In this document: positions 17,088 to 50,414 of the stretch, one piece after another
Layout of the letters: each line of letters opens with the position of its first letter
How positions within the stretch are numbered: the first letter of the stretch is position 1
NCBI GenBank assembly: GCA_022497155.1
Contig: MU385760.1
Span: 310,001-374,000 of the forward strand
Origin: Whalleya microplaca
Lineage: Eukaryota; Ascomycota; Sordariomycetes; Xylariales; Xylariaceae
DNA length: 64,000 bases
Reading direction: 5' to 3'
Program-made: the position numbers and the translations under genes
The notes under the pieces: generated by a model
The model's database searches: none
Told to the model about the DNA's origin: nothing
What the model saw: only the letters and a program-made list of their open reading frames with translations

Positions 17088-17599
17088 TTTTGCTGATTGT
17101 CCAAAAAAGAAGTAGCCAATTGAGTTATTACATGTAGGGACTAAACAGACATATCTAAGGTCGCGGTTGATGGGTCATTACAAAAGATCGTCGCGGGTTC
17201 CTGCGTTAATGGGGGGAGGGTCGGAATGGGCCTGCCGTTGAGGGTTCAATATGTAGCATTATACGTCGGGTCGTAGGGTCCTGCAGTGTGTGTGTCGACT
17301 ACAATGCGTAGGTAGATGCCCAGACGGAGCCGATAAGCGATAAGCACTCACTGCCTCCCCCACATTGTAACACGACTTGAACAGTGGGGCCATTAGGTAA
17401 GTAGCCTAGGTCCCCACTCTTTGCCTTCTCCCTCCGAGTCCACGCCAATCCTTGCCTGCCCATCATCCCTCACTCATCCTTGCCCTGCCAATGCAAACTT
17501 TCAACCTCTCGAACTCCATGTTCCGCCCTTCGTTCCTTTCTCACAATCCGCCTTTGCCCTTCCCCATCACATCACCATCCTCGACGCCAAGCAGCGACC
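17088..17599. promoter_or_regulatory. Divergent promoter between the Mis18-like gene and REX1
   Basis: About 510 bp between two divergent starts. Positions 17410-17590 are strongly CT-rich and precede the REX1 ATG. Confidence 0.55.
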
Positions 17600-19735
17600 A
17601 TGGATAGCAACACAGTCGCGCCGTCGCAGGAGGGGGGCTTACCTGACACACTCGACAAGACACTCGACTTACTTGCCAATGGCGCCGTATCCCCCGTCCC
17701 AGCCACCGACACAACTCAAGGCCTCGACATACAACCTGCTCAGCCCCAAATACCTACTGGCCTAGCAAACGAGACCTCCATTGACTCCATTGACTCCATT
17801 GGTTCGAAGCGCCCTAAACCCCATGACGAGGATGATGAAGGTTGGCAGACTGTGGACAGGCGCTCCAAGAAGGCCAAGAAGGAGAAGAAGATCCCATCCA
17901 CCAAGTCCTCCAATTACCCTTCTATCACCTTCAATTACAATGCGAAACTCCAGTCCAAGATCACTCTGGATCAATTGCGCAATTTAATACTATACATATT
18001 TGCCGAAGGTGTCGCTCCGCAATGGGTTTCCATCTCGCACCGCCCCCAATTTCGAAAGATAGTCGCAATCATGGTGCCGGGGCTGGAAGAGGCCATGTTC
18101 AAACAGGACGTCGATTTCGTCGCCTACAACGATCCGCTCATCGATTCTGAGCTGAAACCCCGAGTGCTGACGTCGCCCGATGATTATTATCCCCGCCTAC
18201 TCAAGAAAGAGGAGCTTCCTGAAATCTTGAAGGACTTCGCCGACATGTTTCCCCATCTATGGCCGGTTAGAACCCCGGGTAATGAGAAATTTGGAACTAT
18301 ACGCTCGCCGCTGGGTACCATGCTCACGGCACCAGGTGAAAAGACGAAAGAGGAGAAGGCCCAGAGAGGTGTTCAGCCTGCGAAAGAGCCCAAGGGCTGG
18401 AAGGACGATCGCACTAGAATAACCGAGTTCCTGGCAATGCCTGAAGATTTCCAGCCAAATGGCTATGTATTACACCCTGCTTGCATACCTGCAGAGCGCC
18501 GCAAGAACTTCCAAGATCTAGAAGGCTGGGTTCACACAAACGTGGAGAATCTTGACGATGGCAATGTCCCGGAAGAGGAGATTCAGCAAGGGAGTGTCAC
18601 GGCTGGACGGGAAGTCCTTGCCCTGGACTGCGAGATGTGTATGACTGGCCCAGACGAGTATTCTCTAACGAGGATCAGCCTAGTAAATTGGGATGGCACC
18701 GTCGTCTTGGACGAACTGGTCAAACCAGACAAGCCCATTGTCGACTATGTCACCCGTTTCTCAGGCATCACACCACAGATGTTAGCACCTGTGACTACGA
18801 CTCTAAGGGACATTCAGGCGAAGCTACTCGAAATCCTCCATCCTCGCACAATCTTAGTAGGGCATTCTTTGGATTCGGATCTGAAAGCTCTGCAACTCTC
18901 TCACCCGTACATCGTTGATACTGCTATGATCTATCCCCATGTTCGAGGGCCGCCCCTGAAGAACAGTCTCAAATTTCTAACGTCACGGTTTCTTAAGCGG
19001 GAAATCCAGAAAGGTGTCACGGGCCATGACTCGATAGAAGATGCCAAGGCGTGCTTAGATCTCGTGAAGCAGAAGTGTGAGAAGGGGAAGGCATGGGGAA
19101 ACCACGAATCGCAAGGTGAAAATCTATTCCGGCGTCTCAATCGTGCTGGAAAAGCATACCGCGCAAATGGAGGGGTTGAAGCCAAGGGTGGTGTTCACGC
19201 TGGAAAGACGAGCGCCATGATCGACTGGGGCGACCCCATGAAAGGCGCCGGCGCAGCCGCTACGTTTCCCATCGGCTGTAGAACAGACGAGGAGGTCACC
19301 CTGGGTATCCTGCGCGCCGTGAACGGCGACCCCGTGGGCGAAGAAATCCCTGCTGGTGGCGCTGACTTCGTCTTTGCACGATTCCGCGAGCTCGAGGCTT
19401 TTCAGGGATGGTGGAATCAGAACAGTGACCTGTCACCCCCCGGTCTGTTGCCTGACATGTCGCTGGAGACCTGTGTTCAGAACCTTACCCAGCGCATCAA
19501 AGGCATCTACGATGCGTTACCTCCTTGCACCGGCTTCATAGTGTTGAGTGGCTCTGGCGATCCCCGCGAAATGGCCCGCCTACAAGCAATGCAAGCCCAG
19601 TTCAAGAAGGAATACAATACTCCCGGTAGCAATTGGGACGAGCTGAGCGTCAAGTGGACGGATAGAGAAGATCAGGCCCTTAGAAAGGCTGTCGGAATCG
19701 CGCGTAACGGCATTGGGTTTATCGGTGTTAAGTAG
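17600..19735 (+). CDS. rex1: Rex1/Rnh70-type 3'-5' RNA exonuclease
   Basis: Nuclear DEDDh exonuclease expected to trim 5S rRNA, tRNA and other 3' ends. Single exon, 711 residues. The exonuclease domain begins near residue 340 with ALDCEMC (first Asp and Glu). It continues with LTRISLVN and GHSLDSDLKAL (second Asp) and ends with GHDSIEDAKACLDLV (catalytic His and last Asp). This order matches yeast Rnh70. An N-terminal Lys-rich stretch near 90-105 (DRRSKKAKKEKKIP) is a likely nuclear signal. The C-terminal 200 residues match REXO1-type extensions only loosely. The frame is open upstream to a TTG at 17480; the ATG at 17600 is the first plausible start and follows a CT-rich leader. Confidence 0.9.
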   Translation: MDSNTVAPSQEGGLPDTLDKTLDLLANGAVSPVPATDTTQGLDIQPAQPQIPTGLANETSIDSIDSIGSKRPKPHDEDDEGWQTVDRRSKKAKKEKKIPSTKSSNYPSITFNYNAKLQSKITLDQLRNLILYIFAEGVAPQWVSISHRPQFRKIVAIMVPGLEEAMFKQDVDFVAYNDPLIDSELKPRVLTSPDDYYPRLLKKEELPEILKDFADMFPHLWPVRTPGNEKFGTIRSPLGTMLTAPGEKTKEEKAQRGVQPAKEPKGWKDDRTRITEFLAMPEDFQPNGYVLHPACIPAERRKNFQDLEGWVHTNVENLDDGNVPEEEIQQGSVTAGREVLALDCEMCMTGPDEYSLTRISLVNWDGTVVLDELVKPDKPIVDYVTRFSGITPQMLAPVTTTLRDIQAKLLEILHPRTILVGHSLDSDLKALQLSHPYIVDTAMIYPHVRGPPLKNSLKFLTSRFLKREIQKGVTGHDSIEDAKACLDLVKQKCEKGKAWGNHESQGENLFRRLNRAGKAYRANGGVEAKGGVHAGKTSAMIDWGDPMKGAGAAATFPIGCRTDEEVTLGILRAVNGDPVGEEIPAGGADFVFARFRELEAFQGWWNQNSDLSPPGLLPDMSLETCVQNLTQRIKGIYDALPPCTGFIVLSGSGDPREMARLQAMQAQFKKEYNTPGSNWDELSVKWTDREDQALRKAVGIARNGIGFIGVK

Positions 19736-21653: not shown

Positions 21654-23659
21654 CTAGAAATCGATCTCGCCGCGGAAGATCTCCGGATCGACGCCGGGGA
21701 CGACCTTGTCGGCGAGGTCGCGGCGGCCCATCTGCGTGAAGACGCGGCGGAGGGTGTCGTAGAGGTTGGTGGAGCGGTTCTGGGTGGTCATGGCGTCGAG
21801 CTGGGCGTCGCTGACGTCGCCGCCGAGCAGCTCGCGGGCCTTCTCGCGGCCCTCCTTCTCGACCGTCTTGTGCATGTTCAGCGCGGCCAGCAGGTGGCCC
21901 GCCGCCTCGCCGTGGCAGCCCATGTTGATGCAGCTGACGCCCAGGTTGTAGCGCGCCCGCACGAAGTTCGGCCGCAGCGTCAGCGCCTTCTCGTACGCCG
22001 CGATCGCGTCCTCGCTCTTGCCGCTGTTGGCCAGCGTCGCCCCCAGCCGGTTCCACAGCAAGTGCACCTGGCTTTCCTTGTTCGACTGGCCCGTCTCCGA
22101 CGAGGCCAGCGCCGCCGAGAAGCAGTCCACGGCCTTGTCGTACTCCTCGGCGCCGTAGAATAGAACGCCCAGCCCTACCTGCACGTCGGGATCCATGTGC
22201 TCACCGCCCGGACTGAGCCTCGCTGCTTTGATGAATAGTTGCGTCACTTGGTCGTGGAGCTGCTGGCGTTCTGTAAAGCCCAGCTCGGAGGGAGACGACA
22301 GATCGGTTGGCGAGATAACTGAAGGATACCTGATAGAGAGCCACCGCTCGAGAGTTCGGTAAGCTGTGCTGTCGTATCCTTCATTTGTGTAAGAGACTGC
22401 CAGGGTCATGAGGGCGGTCATGTTGTTAGGATCGAGGTTCTTCGCCTGTTCTAGAGCTCGGATCGCCGCCGTCTCCTTCTCGTTCTGTGCCTGGGCGATG
22501 CCAAGCTGGACCCAGGCGTCTATGTGCTGGGGATCCTTTTGCGCCGCCGCCTCAAACGCCAAAGCGGCCAAGGAGAGATTGCCGCCCTCGTCCATGATGC
22601 GCATGCCCTCTTCGAAGGGATTTGCCGTATCTTTGAACAGATTGTCGTCTTCAAACAGATAATTCTCGACCTGAGGGTCGCCCATGAGTCTGCTGTGGTT
22701 GATCCCGTCCCAGTTTTCGAAAGGTTCGGCCCATTCAGGATTCCCCAGTTGATCGATCCATTCTTCCTCGTCAACACCCTCTTTGGCGGCCGCTCTTTCT
22801 GCCTGTATACCTCGCCAGATGGACTCGAAGTCGCCAAACTCGTTGGTTTCCGATTCCAAGATCTGCTCGTCCAACTTGTTTAGCTCCGGCTCTAGTGCTG
22901 CGGCTTCGTCCTCGCCCTGCCCCTGCTTGTCCTGCAACTCCAGCTGTTTGAACTGCTCCTCCCATTGCTGGTCGTCGAGCTCCACCAGCTTGCCCTTCCC
23001 TTTCCCCTGGTCTGCCCGCTCTAAAGGTTGCTGCGCAGGGCGATACATGGGGGCGTTGTGCATACCAGCCATACCGTAGTTCATGCCCATACTGCTGCCC
23101 ATATTGCTGACCATGCCCACACCCATCATCGGACGTTGAAACGCCATGGCAGACGGCATGGGACTTGACCGCGAGGAGGTCGCCTGGCCGGTCATCCGTT
23201 GGAACTTGGCATAGTCTTCTGGGCTGAACTGTGTACCTTGCGGCACCTTGAATGCGGACTCCATAGCAGCCTGCGGGTTATGTTGGAATTCGTTGGCCCA
23301 CGAGGGGGAAGTCGAGTTCGCTCGTAAGTGGATGCCATGCGCGGGATGATCTAGTCGTATCTGGTTCATACCCTCGAGCGGCATGTCGGGCAACCGGCCG
23401 TTTTGCTGCAAGAAGCCATTCATCATCTGTAGACACCGGTGGTTAGTCACGGAGATATCGCCGGTAGCGTAGCCAATAAACAAACCTCATCCTGCGGGCC
23501 GTGTTGCGCAGCGGTGCGGAAGCCACCCATACCACTCTGAGGGGTTCCATTCCGGAGGCGGTCTCTCTGCAGACTGTTGTCTTCCTGGGTGTGCTTCGTG
23601 AACTGACTGAGCGGGTTGCCCGCAGTCGAGCACTCCGGGCCTCCACCGAGGAAAGACAT
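21654..23659 (-). CDS. pex5: Peroxisomal targeting signal 1 receptor (peroxin-5)
   Basis: Cycling cytosolic receptor that imports proteins ending in SKL-like PTS1 signals. Exons 23659-23486 and 23426-21654 give 648 residues; donor GTTTGT, acceptor CTACAG. The N-terminus MSFLGGGPECSTAGNPLSQF contains the conserved Cys at position 10 used for monoubiquitination and recycling. The disordered N-half carries WxxxF/Y-type docking motifs: WANEF, WEEQF and WAEPF. The C-half (about 330-620) contains the TPR repeats, including AWVQLGIAQAQNEKE and LWNRLGATLANSGKSEDAI, that form the PTS1 pocket. The stop is TAG. Three other proteins in this window end in SKL and are likely cargo. Confidence 0.96.
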
Positions 23660-46456: not shown

Positions 46457-47933
46457 CTAACAAAATGTTAATATGTTGCATATGCCGTCCAAAAGGATGC
46501 CTAAGCAGCCACAATCTCCGGCAGACTCGTAGCAGCAGCAGCAACAACAGCAGGCGCCGTTGTTCACTGCCGTTTCGAGACAGGGTGTCGGGTTTAGGAA
46601 CTTGGAAAAACGGGAATCAACATACTTGAGTAGTCGACGAAACCGCCTGCAAGGAAACTCAGTGTTAGCGAACAATTTCTCTATTCGTCGATGCTGCTAT
46701 CATCAATCCTTACCTCCTTTTCCCTTTGCTTTGTTGGTCTTTACCCCCTTGGACTTCGTAGTCGTAGCTGGCATTGCCTCGCTGCCTGCTATGCTCAGTG
46801 TTGCCTCGAAGCACCTCGTGCCGTGTTTGAGTTGCGGCACTCTTTGTTTTGCCTTTGGGATCCGAGGCGTTGCTCCCAGTCTCCAGTTTCGAGTCATCTA
46901 GATCGCTGAGTGAATCGTAGTTGAGCGACCCCTGCCGCTCTGCCGGCGACGCCTCTAAGAGATTACGAGCTGATCCCGCCGTGGTTCCGGTTGAGACGCA
47001 CAAGGCATGCGTTACGGTAATCTGAGAAGCGTTATGAGTGTTAGGAGCCGCACCTTGCACGCTTGGCTCCCCGCGCTCCTAAATTGGATGAAGCCGGTCC
47101 ATCTGATGCCGCCACAAAGCCCTCCGAGCCTTTTTGCGGCGCTGGCGTTGAGCTTCCAAGATTGTCGAATTATATTCGTTGCCCAAGGCCTGGGGCGCGT
47201 CCGGTTCCCTGATCACCATGGGTTTCTGCTGTGGTGGCTTCCCAGTGAGTGGCTTTAGCGGTAGCTTTGGATCGAAGGTTGTGCATCTCTCCACTTCGTT
47301 TGCCTTTCGAGTACTCTCTGGTTCTGGCTGCCGTCGATTATCACTGTCGGTACTTGTGCTGCGGCTTGGGATACTGCGTACCGTTTGATCCGGGTCTGGT
47401 GATTCGATTGGTGTAGATGGCTTCAAGCTCTCGTTTATAGGCTGTAAGCCGCTATTTAGATCGTCCTTGACGGAATTATGTTCGGATATAGAAATCTTTG
47501 GTATGATTAGCTCAGGGCCCTCATTGGTGACGTTGTTGATGGAAACATTTCCGGTTGCGATATCTGCTGTTATAGGAGGCTCCGATTCTTCGTTCGTAAC
47601 GTTGCTGATGGAGCTGTTACCATTGGTGGAGATACTATCGTTGGTCGACTCCTCGGTGTTCATGGAACCATTTTGAATTGTTGGATCTTCAGATATAGAA
47701 GAAGGCTTGGAGCTCACATCTGTATCGTTCTTGGTAGAATTATTGTGGGATTCAGCGCTGACATAAGTGGACTCTGAGTTATCCTGAGCCTCAACGATCT
47801 CACCATTCTGGATGGATTGGCTCGACGGGGACTTAGTAACAGTCCTCGAGTGGCTTTCGGTGTCTTCATCCTGTGCCTGATCTCCTGCATAAGCGGCAGA
47901 ACGCTTCTGATGAAAAAAGGGAGAAGAATCCAT
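46457..47933 (-). CDS. Uncharacterised protein gene with one in-frame TAG (gene Y)
   Basis: Unknown protein, rich in Ser, Asn, Thr and Glu, probably disordered. From the ATG at 47933 the frame is open for 284 codons, ending in the basic segment QRQRRKKARRALWRHQMDRL and then TAG at 47081-47079. The same frame continues 122 codons to 46713 with similar composition (for example SLNYDSLSDLDDSKLETG), so the TAG looks like an interruption. There is no good GT donor within 130 bp upstream. Near 46713 a canonical intron (GTAAGG, branch CTAAC, acceptor TTGCAG at 46647) would extend the frame to a Cys-rich tail ending at 46457. A different frame across that same intron begins at an ATG at 46774. The 3' structure is therefore uncertain. 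Pairs with the similarly interrupted gene X. Confidence 0.55.
46600..46774 (-). CDS. Alternative small ORF overlapping the 3' end of gene Y
   Basis: An ATG at 46774, in a different frame from gene Y, reads MPATTTKSKGVKTNKAKGKG and, joined across the canonical intron 46713-46647, continues GGFVDYSSMLIPVFPSS to a stop near 46600. It looks like a compact small protein, but I do not recognise a family. Only one of the two frames is likely to be used here. Confidence 0.3.
47079..47081 (-). other. In-frame TAG of gene Y
   Basis: The UAG A (47080) falls at the 3' end of a six-base loop closed by UCC/GGA, within a further stem GGCUUC/GGAGCC (47095-47090 with 47070-47065). If edited to UGG it would encode Trp in HPIWERG. 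Confidence 0.5.
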
Positions 47934-48527
47934 AGTCTCGCGTCAGAGTGACGAGCGAAGGTTGGAATTAAAGAGTTTAACGAATGTGTAAGTCTTTTCT
48001 CCCAGATATCTCCTGGCAATGGTAACGATGGACAACGATGATCTATTCCGAAATATAGTATGCAAGTGATGGAAACGCGATAATTATTGTCTGCCCTCGG
48101 GGCTGGTTCATGTTTGCGTTGGGAAGACTGAAGTCATAGATATTCCGAGAATATAGGAAGTAGTTAAGCTTACTGTCGAGCCCAGGAAGTTACTAGCTAA
48201 CCTAGATTGGGAGAGAAGTGGTAGCCTACTTCCATTAAAGAAAAGAGTGGCATGTCTTCCAGAAGAAACGAAGGAGCGAATATAAAAGCTTCCGGGCCTA
48301 TTTTGGAGTAATCACAGTTTGTGAGACGAGAATCATCAACGTTATTCATATGCAACATAATCATTATCTATGTCCACTAACTTGTATCAAGTGATCCTAT
48401 TCTGGTAGAGCCCAGGCCATATAAAAGGTATCGGCCTCAAGGGTCCTTAGCTGCGACTTAAAGCTCTAAAAACATCTAAAGCAGCGATATCATACATGGT
48501 TCCTCGCTCGCAAATGACATGAGCTTT
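47934..48527. promoter_or_regulatory. Intergenic region between genes X and Y
   Basis: About 590 bp between the TGA of gene X and the ATG of gene Y, both on the minus strand; it should hold the gene X 3' end and the gene Y promoter. No gene seen. Confidence 0.45.
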
Positions 48528-50414
48528 TCAGAAGCCCATCATTTTGGTCCAGGCTGCTTTCTCCTTGTCCAATACTGCACGGTCTTGTTCTAGCATCTCA
48601 GATAGGCTAAGGCGTCTCTTGGAGCCCGCTTGTGTAGTCGTATGGGTAGTAGACAGCGAGTAGTCAGACACTCTGCCTTCATTGGCACCAGGAATGCCGA
48701 CCAAGGTGACAAGCTTAGCTTGTAGTGCTACTGGGTCCGAAAACTTTCGATGATTGACAAGAGATGATATGTCAGATCCACGGCGCTGTCTCCTAGCCCT
48801 GTTGTTCTCAGCAGCTTCTCTACGAATAGCTAGGCCATTCCGTGCGCCGAGGAAAGATGTTCTGCGAGAAAGACCTGCCTAAGGCTCCGGCGCAGGTATC
48901 ACTGTCTCTTTACGAGATTGACCCGAAAACTTTGCCCGATGGGAACCATGCACTTTATTCTTCTGCTCCTTGTCAGAAACAATGGCACCACACATGGAAT
49001 CGGGCGTTGTTGGTCCAAAGGTTGGGGAGACTCTAGGCACAACCTTCGGGGTAAATTTTGGGGTTCGCGGTCCTTCAATGGGAATAGGTAAAGGCGCCTG
49101 ACTAGAGCGAAGTCGCTGAGCCTTTTTGGTGTAGAGCGTAGGCGAGTCTTGAGTGAATGGATCGGCGAAGAGCGGTTCTAGAGAACCCTGTAAGCCGTCG
49201 GTCCACGAAGCACATCTGGTCTCCTGTACAGGCCCTCTCATCACTGAAGCGGAATTCACACCATCACTCTGATTCTTCATTTCAGGATCCTCACCTGAGT
49301 TCTCGAGCAGGTGGGACATGAGTGCCCCAGACATGAGATACTTGTTTTCCGTATTCCTCCGCGACGTCCTCCGCGACGCGGAAGGTTTATCGTAGACGAT
49401 AGGAAAATCGTCAATGTGATCCTTCACAATGTCGTCAATTCGACGTTGCCGTTCCAATTTCTCAGCCAGATCCGTTGTCTGGGTGCCCTTGTGAGAAGAG
49501 GCAGATTTCTCCGATATTGTAGTTTCATCCCTAGTTGAATATCGATGACCCCGCTGCTTGGATTTTAACAACTGTGTACGAAGATCTTTGCGATTCTTTA
49601 GTTTCTCACGAGCATTGGTCGACGAGCCTTCCATTCCTCTGGGCTTGGGATTGTGCGGAGCAACCATCGGATCCAACATCTTCTAGCTGTCGTTATCTTG
49701 GGCTGCCTTGTCCGACACCTCTGTTGCCTTAGTGGGGATCGAGATGGAGGTCTGTTCGTCTGGTAGATCCAATTTGTGTTTTTTCTTCGAGGTGCCGTCT
49801 CCATTATTAGCCTTCTCATCCTTCTTTTTTCTCTTCTTGCTGGCGGATTTGTCACCAACGGAGGAGGAATCAGTTGAAAAATCGTTGGCTATTACATCCC
49901 GAGCAGCATGTTTGACTCTGTTGCGGCGGTTGGTCCCCTTCCCGTGCACATTTTTCTTGTCCTCGGAGCTCATTTCTACCTCGTGCTTTCCAGGCAGGAT
50001 ACCGCACTGGAAGTCGGAGCCTAGATGCCTCTTTAATCTCCGGAGAAGTTTTCGGATAAGGCTACAATCGCTAGCACGCTCAGGTCTTGGGTCGAGCCTG
50101 TGATATCTTTCTCGCCGAGTCAGTTTTCCTGATCGCTTTCTGATATGGCGTCGCTTTCGCTTTTGTAGAAGTCTCTGCCGTCGAAGTAGCTGGTGATACT
50201 CCTGACTACGCTCATTACTCACGCGTAAAAATTCCTTGTCGAGTTCCCTCTGCTTTACTATCAATCTGTTTGTCTTATCTGTAATGATATTGCGCGCTTC
50301 TGTGGATAAAGGGTTCGGAAGCTCAAGCTTCAAGGAGGGGTCAACATCACGACGAATCTTAGACTTGCGCCTTCCTTTGGCATCGGGAAGCTGAGTTGCA
50401 GAGATGCCCGCCAT
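48528..50414 (-). CDS. Uncharacterised basic protein gene with two in-frame TAG codons (gene X)
   Basis: Unknown protein. One reading frame runs from ATG 50414 to TGA 48530-48528: 629 codons interrupted only by TAG at 49685-49683 and 48881-48879. Segment 1 (243 codons) is basic and helical (KQRELDKEFLRVSNERSQEY, then KRKRRHIRKR) and ends with a nuclear-signal-like KKRKKKDEKAN. Segment 2 (267 codons) has RRIDDIVKDHIDDFPIVYDK and ENKYLMSGALMSHLLENSG. Segment 3 (116 codons) has SRRTSFLGARNGLAIRREAA and ends LSLSEMLEQDRAVLD...WTKMMGF. Such lengths are unlikely to stay open by chance after a stop. Because both TAGs end in AG, they could instead be 3' splice sites, but the available donors (GTTGGT at about 49868, GTGCAT) are weak or give unusual introns. 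No family recognised. Confidence 0.6.
48879..48881 (-). other. Second in-frame TAG of gene X
   Basis: The UAG lies at the 3' end of a 13-base loop closed by a perfect six-base stem, ACCUGC/GCAGGU (48897-48892 with 48878-48873). Confidence 0.5.
49683..49685 (-). other. First in-frame TAG of gene X
   Basis: The UAG lies in a nine-base loop closed by CGACA/UGUUG (49692-49688 with 49678-49674), which includes one G-U pair. An ATG follows two codons later. Confidence 0.5.

Follow-up and report, generated by a model that had tools for sequence, protein, structure and literature searches.

The closest described counterparts of the genes considered here are the premature-stop-correction genes of Fusarium graminearum and Neurospora crassa, in which adenosine-to-inosine (A-to-I) editing of messenger RNA (mRNA) acts on an in-frame UAG. 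For example, NCU03242, the N. crassa ortholog of PUK1, carries UAG UGG at its CDWWS site and is edited in perithecia, and the F. graminearum ortholog of rid is among the edited genes, as stated in one study (PMC4817773). Fungal A-to-I editing is likewise reported to favor U at position −1 and hairpin loops (PMC11156358). Here we describe a neighboring pair of genes, X and Y, in the 48.1-Mb genome (114 contigs) of Whalleya microplaca, whose place in taxonomy is Xylariales, Sordariomycetes. The region examined, 46457-50414, lies inside a 64-kb window, which is the whole stretch of DNA that was analyzed (positions 310001-374000 of a 396,427-base contig). From their sequence, we judge that X and Y are probably premature-stop-correction genes whose UAG codons are edited to UIG and read as tryptophan; among the three candidate sites, the adenosine at 49684 appears to be the best supported, followed by 47080 and then 48880. 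The two genes are laid out as follows.

50414-48528, minus strand: gene X as a whole, with two in-frame TAGs
50414-49686, minus strand: X1, the first piece of X, 243 codons from ATG; basic, with many disorder-promoting residues
49685-49683, minus strand: first TAG of X; candidate edited A at 49684
49682-48882, minus strand: X2, the second piece of X, 267 codons, keeping the frame of X1
48881-48879, minus strand: second TAG of X; candidate edited A at 48880
48878-48531, minus strand: X3, the third piece of X, 116 codons, with an ambiguous coding score
48530-48528, minus strand: TGA, the terminal stop of X
47933-46457, minus strand: gene Y as a whole, with one in-frame TAG and a clear 3' intron
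47933-47082, minus strand: Y1, the first piece of Y, 284 codons
47081-47079, minus strand: internal TAG of Y; candidate edited A at 47080
47078-46713, minus strand: Y2, the second piece of Y as an open frame, 122 codons; as an exon it runs to the splice donor, 47078-46714
46713-46647, minus strand: 3' intron of Y, 67 nucleotides (nt), with consensus GTAAGG, CTAAC and TTGCAG
46646-46457, minus strand: last exon of Y, 62 full codons (46645-46460) and then TAG at 46459-46457

A preliminary description of this DNA had noted two in-frame TAGs in X and one in Y, and its coordinates and stop types were reproduced: the interruptions are TAG in three cases out of three, none being TAA or TGA, they lie in neighboring genes, the open frames beyond them have exactly the lengths claimed, and the adenosines are at the antisense positions it gave. 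How often would such an arrangement arise by chance? At equal base composition, the probability of the open frames is 1.9e-6 for X2, 0.003 for the frame of 116 codons and 0.002 for that of 122, and the probability of all three stops being TAG is 0.02–0.03. A codon model trained on 62 long open reading frames (ORFs), kept from 66 found in 321,556 bases of the host genome with X and Y excluded, yields codon-frequency scores of 0.078 for X1, 0.050 for X2, 0.089 for Y1 and 0.050 for Y2, each of them positive and the highest of the six frames; wrong-frame fragments of equal length match these scores in 0.8, 2.7, 0.2 and 5.4% of cases, respectively. Sliding windows give a strong signal as far as the first X stop and slightly beyond it. 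In other words, UAG interrupts an otherwise open coding frame, less clearly so at 48880, where the downstream piece is not clearly coding.

Two explanations that dispense with editing bear directly on these frames. The pieces might be separate small genes, or might be joined by translational readthrough or reinitiation, and an ATG does form the second codon of X2 after the first TAG; however, the first 100 codons of X3 are without methionine, Y2 has none at all, and in-frame continuation is not expected three times, and we hold this explanation to be very improbable. The main rival is that X and Y are decaying pseudogenes and the three TAGs nonsense mutations, which we consider unlikely. Nonsense decay requires no special mechanism, but all three stops are of one type, no frameshift is needed across 3.9 kb, and the 3' intron of Y, which lies beyond the internal stop, keeps intact signals. 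Additionally, X and Y show no signature of repeat-induced point mutation (RIP), with TpA/ApT at 0.68 and 0.71 and the substrate index at 1.22 and 1.27, and nonsense codons made by RIP were rejected on this ground.

The predicted RNA structure argues further against decay. When each adenosine is folded with 30 nt on either side, the span used in a Fusarium study (PMC4817773), the predicted probability of lying in a hairpin loop is 1.00 at 49684, 0.89 at 48880 and 0.92 at 47080. The preliminary description had noted that such editing favors UAG in hairpin loops, and all three adenosines do lie in predicted loops. The other TAGs of the window (n = 1708) have a median loop probability of 0.10, and 3.9, 11.9 and 10.4% of them reach the values of 49684, 48880 and 47080, respectively. 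Loop placement was computed at five flank sizes: random triples match the mean of the three sites in 0.2% of draws at ±30 nt (0.4% when matched for GC content), and the corresponding fractions are 0.025 at ±15 nt (0.051 GC-matched) and 0.002–0.009 across ±20 to ±40 nt (0.004–0.013 GC-matched). Such placement of three adenosines is improbable by chance, which speaks against the pseudogene explanation. The U at −1 and the purine at +1, present at all three sites, follow from TAG itself. At positions +3 and +4, the bases are A and G at both 49684 and 47080, in full agreement with the purine preference there, and C and A at 48880, in partial agreement.

Might the stops instead fall in unrecognized introns? 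By a simple scoring of donor, branch site and acceptor, in phase across the stop, we found no good candidate at either X stop. The best in-phase scores are 1 and 4 at the X stops and 6 at the Y stop, which are ordinary against a background median of 5 (n = 605 stop triplets), whereas of six places in the same DNA where TAA or TGA separates coding-like ORFs, four offer introns scoring 8–11. For Y, codon scores around the stop are low and an in-phase 195-nt candidate exists (47216-47022; GTGATC, CTAAC, TCTCAG), but its donor is poor. A further candidate, of 94 nt, has a good branch site, but its donor is poor and its length is not divisible by three. The public protein model of Y, which omits the last exon, skips the TAG with another intron.

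47062-47115, minus strand: intron of the public Y model, 54 nt, GTGGCG ... CCAAG, non-consensus

This intron is probably not real. Automatic annotation is reported to have wrongly added introns that avoid in-frame stops in PUK1 and in at least 69 further genes of Fusarium (PMC4817773), and Y shares with them a doubtful stop-skipping intron in its automatic model. The survey of host kinases described below lends the intron explanation some weight, most TAGs within kinase matches sitting at likely intron ends, but with poor donors and ordinary scores at our three stops we regard it as quite improbable here.

Does the host genome otherwise show signs of this kind of editing? Three loci outside the X/Y contig provide internal points of reference.

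Contig C7, 970786-971079, minus strand: PUK1/stk-21-like NDR-type kinase (L065), whose kinase domain reads TAG TGG where Trp-Trp is conserved
Contig C19, 507511-507513: TAG of a DNA methyltransferase (L002, 1954-1956) that we take, from its motifs, to be of RID type; one of five PF00145 matches
Contig C5, 314218-315312: DUF726 paralog with Met-Val (L010), one of four DUF726 paralogs

In the kinase, GAC TAG TGG stands where CBK1 has CDWWS, such that TAG aligns with the first Trp and TGG follows; CBK1 is also its best relative in the PDB (E 1.4e-48, for a query with 16 stray residues at its start), and the exon of the N-lobe lies upstream in a different frame, beyond an apparent intron. Family and site together suggest that this gene is the PUK1/stk-21 ortholog. 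In the methyltransferase, the TAG falls within NLST*GVPQPRKR (asterisk, the stop), directly before GVPQPRKR, and the frame is open on both sides. The kinase and methyltransferase TAGs have predicted loop probabilities of 1.00 and 0.98 at ±30 nt, and their best in-phase introns score 7 and 4, respectively. The third locus concerns the activator of editing. Met-Val in place of Lys-Asn is reported to be critical for the editing role of Ame1 (PMC11087585), and one of the four DUF726 paralogs in the host genome has this mRNA-editing form: L010 carries Met-Val about 30 residues ahead of the catalytic Ser, a place taken by Arg-Asn in L009, and Met-Val is absent from the three other paralogs. The position was assigned by an alignment of the four paralogs, with the Fusarium protein outside it, and by how far it lies from the catalytic Ser, and it differs by one residue from the Fusarium numbering.

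The kinase came from a survey of 143 kinase matches, 14 with TAG, in which all seven with TAG as the only stop type inside were inspected. Kinases L035, L061, L062, L063 and L064 were rejected as edited genes, their TAGs sitting at likely splice acceptors, and so was the MFS candidate L047, for the same reason. The kinase-like stretch L060 (contig C41, 215300-215671) has two TAGs among many other stops and was not counted as support; it is either a copy that has decayed or a gene that is poorly resolved. On the minus strand of contig C57 (L025, 2403), an in-frame TAG stands where a kinase domain begins, between coding-like ORFs of 101 and 352 codons; an in-phase intron of fair quality, with a score of 7, may explain this TAG.

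A number of observations weigh against editing of X and Y, or of particular sites within them, and some of them lend credit to the pseudogene explanation. The first concerns relatives. Our protein search, which requires shared 5-residue words and similar length and which divergent or truncated relatives may escape, gave no match for read-through X among the 7993 candidates scored, those with the most words in common; read-through Y, with 3854 candidates, and X1, with 324, gave one match each, both being the host's own proteins. No paralogs of X1, X2 or Y were found in the host genome, the sole Pfam match among the five pieces up to E 1 was at E 0.22, and neither read-through X nor Y1 had a PDB match at E 1 or below. 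With no homolog of X or Y outside the host genome, no conserved Trp can therefore be demonstrated, and there is no sign of cross-species constraint, as would suit pseudogenes. A literature search, which most subscription papers lay outside, found no report of editing in Xylariales or Whalleya.

The second group of observations concerns coding potential. The claim of the preliminary description that sequence on both sides of the TAGs is protein-like stands for X1, X2, Y1 and Y2 by codon frequency, but not for X3, which at −0.003 is tied with another frame and is reached by 15% of wrong-frame fragments; nor does it stand by a score restricted to synonymous codons, which is negative for all pieces and for which the claimed frame is not the best in X2, X3 and Y2. 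Weak coding in X3 and the negative synonymous score are both in keeping with pseudogenes. The last exon of Y scores −0.118 in its correct frame, that is, as non-coding; sliding windows put the claimed frame at or below zero both around the Y stop and around the second of the two X stops; the 25 codons preceding the Y stop score −0.132; and in the Arg-rich part of X at about codons 60–140 (49995-50234, minus strand), the next frame outscores the claimed one.

Other points concern the stops themselves. Among same-frame pairs of coding-like ORFs of at least 70 codons in the examined host DNA, four are joined by TAG, three by TAA and three by TGA (n = 10), and at a threshold of at least 100 codons, the counts are four, one and two (n = 7). 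The X2/X3 pair failed the filter of this tally, two of the TAG pairs are X and Y themselves and a third is the methyltransferase; with three of the four TAG pairs thus accounted for, there is no clear excess of TAG among interrupted ORFs. Of the seven TAG-only kinase matches, five have the TAG at a likely intron end and one is ambiguous, leaving the PUK1-like gene. The loop probability falls at some flanks, to 0.62 for 48880 at ±40 nt and to 0.71 for 47080 at ±25 nt, and 48880 has the C at +3. Finally, the public X protein, of 243 residues, simply stops at the first TAG with no skipping intron, in which it differs from the Fusarium PUK1 pattern.

Taken together, the suggestion of the preliminary description that X and Y are an A-to-I edited pair stands in part. 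In its favor are the Sordariomycete host, the loops, the want of a good in-phase intron, the lack of a RIP signature, the skipping intron of Y and the two anchor genes; it falls short on homologs showing Trp, on codon scores near the second X stop and the Y stop and on any excess of TAG. We infer editing, its stage and the roles of the proteins from the DNA. Under premature-stop correction, full-length X and Y would be made only once deamination has turned the internal UAGs into UIG, a codon read as tryptophan. The enzyme is likely to be Tad2-Tad3 with Ame1 as its activator, at work in the fruiting bodies of the sexual stage. Translation of unedited mRNA would end after 243 residues in X and after 284 in Y. 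Through editing, X would gain about 385 residues; it is a basic protein (net charge +29 for X1, +12 for X2 and +10 for X3) and probably nuclear. Editing of Y would add a C-terminal basic stretch and a Cys cluster; the last exon encodes the basic stretch and then 12 Cys among its 62 codons, seven of them consecutive, and this palmitoylated-looking cluster may be a lipid-modified membrane anchor that the unedited form would miss. A more specific picture is possible, if on the whole doubtful: X and Y could be a lineage-specific pair jointly gated by Tad2-Tad3-Ame1, X needing two corrections per mRNA and Y being turned from soluble to membrane-anchored, as young orphan genes recruited into sexual development.

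Codon reassignment, by which TAG would not act as a stop in this genome, was rejected because other ORFs of the window end in TAG. The preliminary description had cited TAG as the ordinary stop of a PEX5 gene, and the gene so named, which we call a TPR gene, does end in that way.

21654-23486: TPR gene, ending in TAG
17405-19735: exonuclease-domain ORF, ending in TAG

How, then, do X and Y compare with known systems? The OLD-ZAO antiviral editing modules (in Neurospora, and CHE1 in Fusarium) are likewise gene pairs with UAG-to-UIG correction in hairpin loops, but they consist of an OTT_1508 deaminase gene adjacent to a zinc-finger gene, and X and Y are without either; membership was rejected, no OTT_1508 deaminase or zinc-finger match of meaningful score having been found in X or Y. 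The OLD antiviral editing enzymes belong to the OTT_1508 family, and the host genome has four such domains (L050–L053, on contigs C17, C72, C4 and C29), none on the X/Y contig; a zinc-finger motif scan of about 1.5 kb on each side of these four loci gave five pattern matches, none convincing.

The comparison with the premature-stop-correction genes of F. graminearum and N. crassa is closer. Should our reading be correct, the signature of restorative editing would reach Xylariales by way of genome sequence alone, two conserved genes of the host serving as internal anchors. It also suggests an RNA-free search, for coding-like frames joined by a TAG that lies in a predicted hairpin loop and has no usable intron; homology-based annotation would miss X and Y because similarity search gave no relatives. 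With PUK1/stk-21, RID, AMD1 and AMA1, X and Y have in common a coding sequence that is largely open but interrupted by an in-frame UAG, a U preceding the A, a predicted hairpin loop and a Sordariomycete host. What sets them apart is that the host belongs to Xylariales, that they have no detectable homologs, that their editing is a prediction, and that they form a neighboring pair with three sites.

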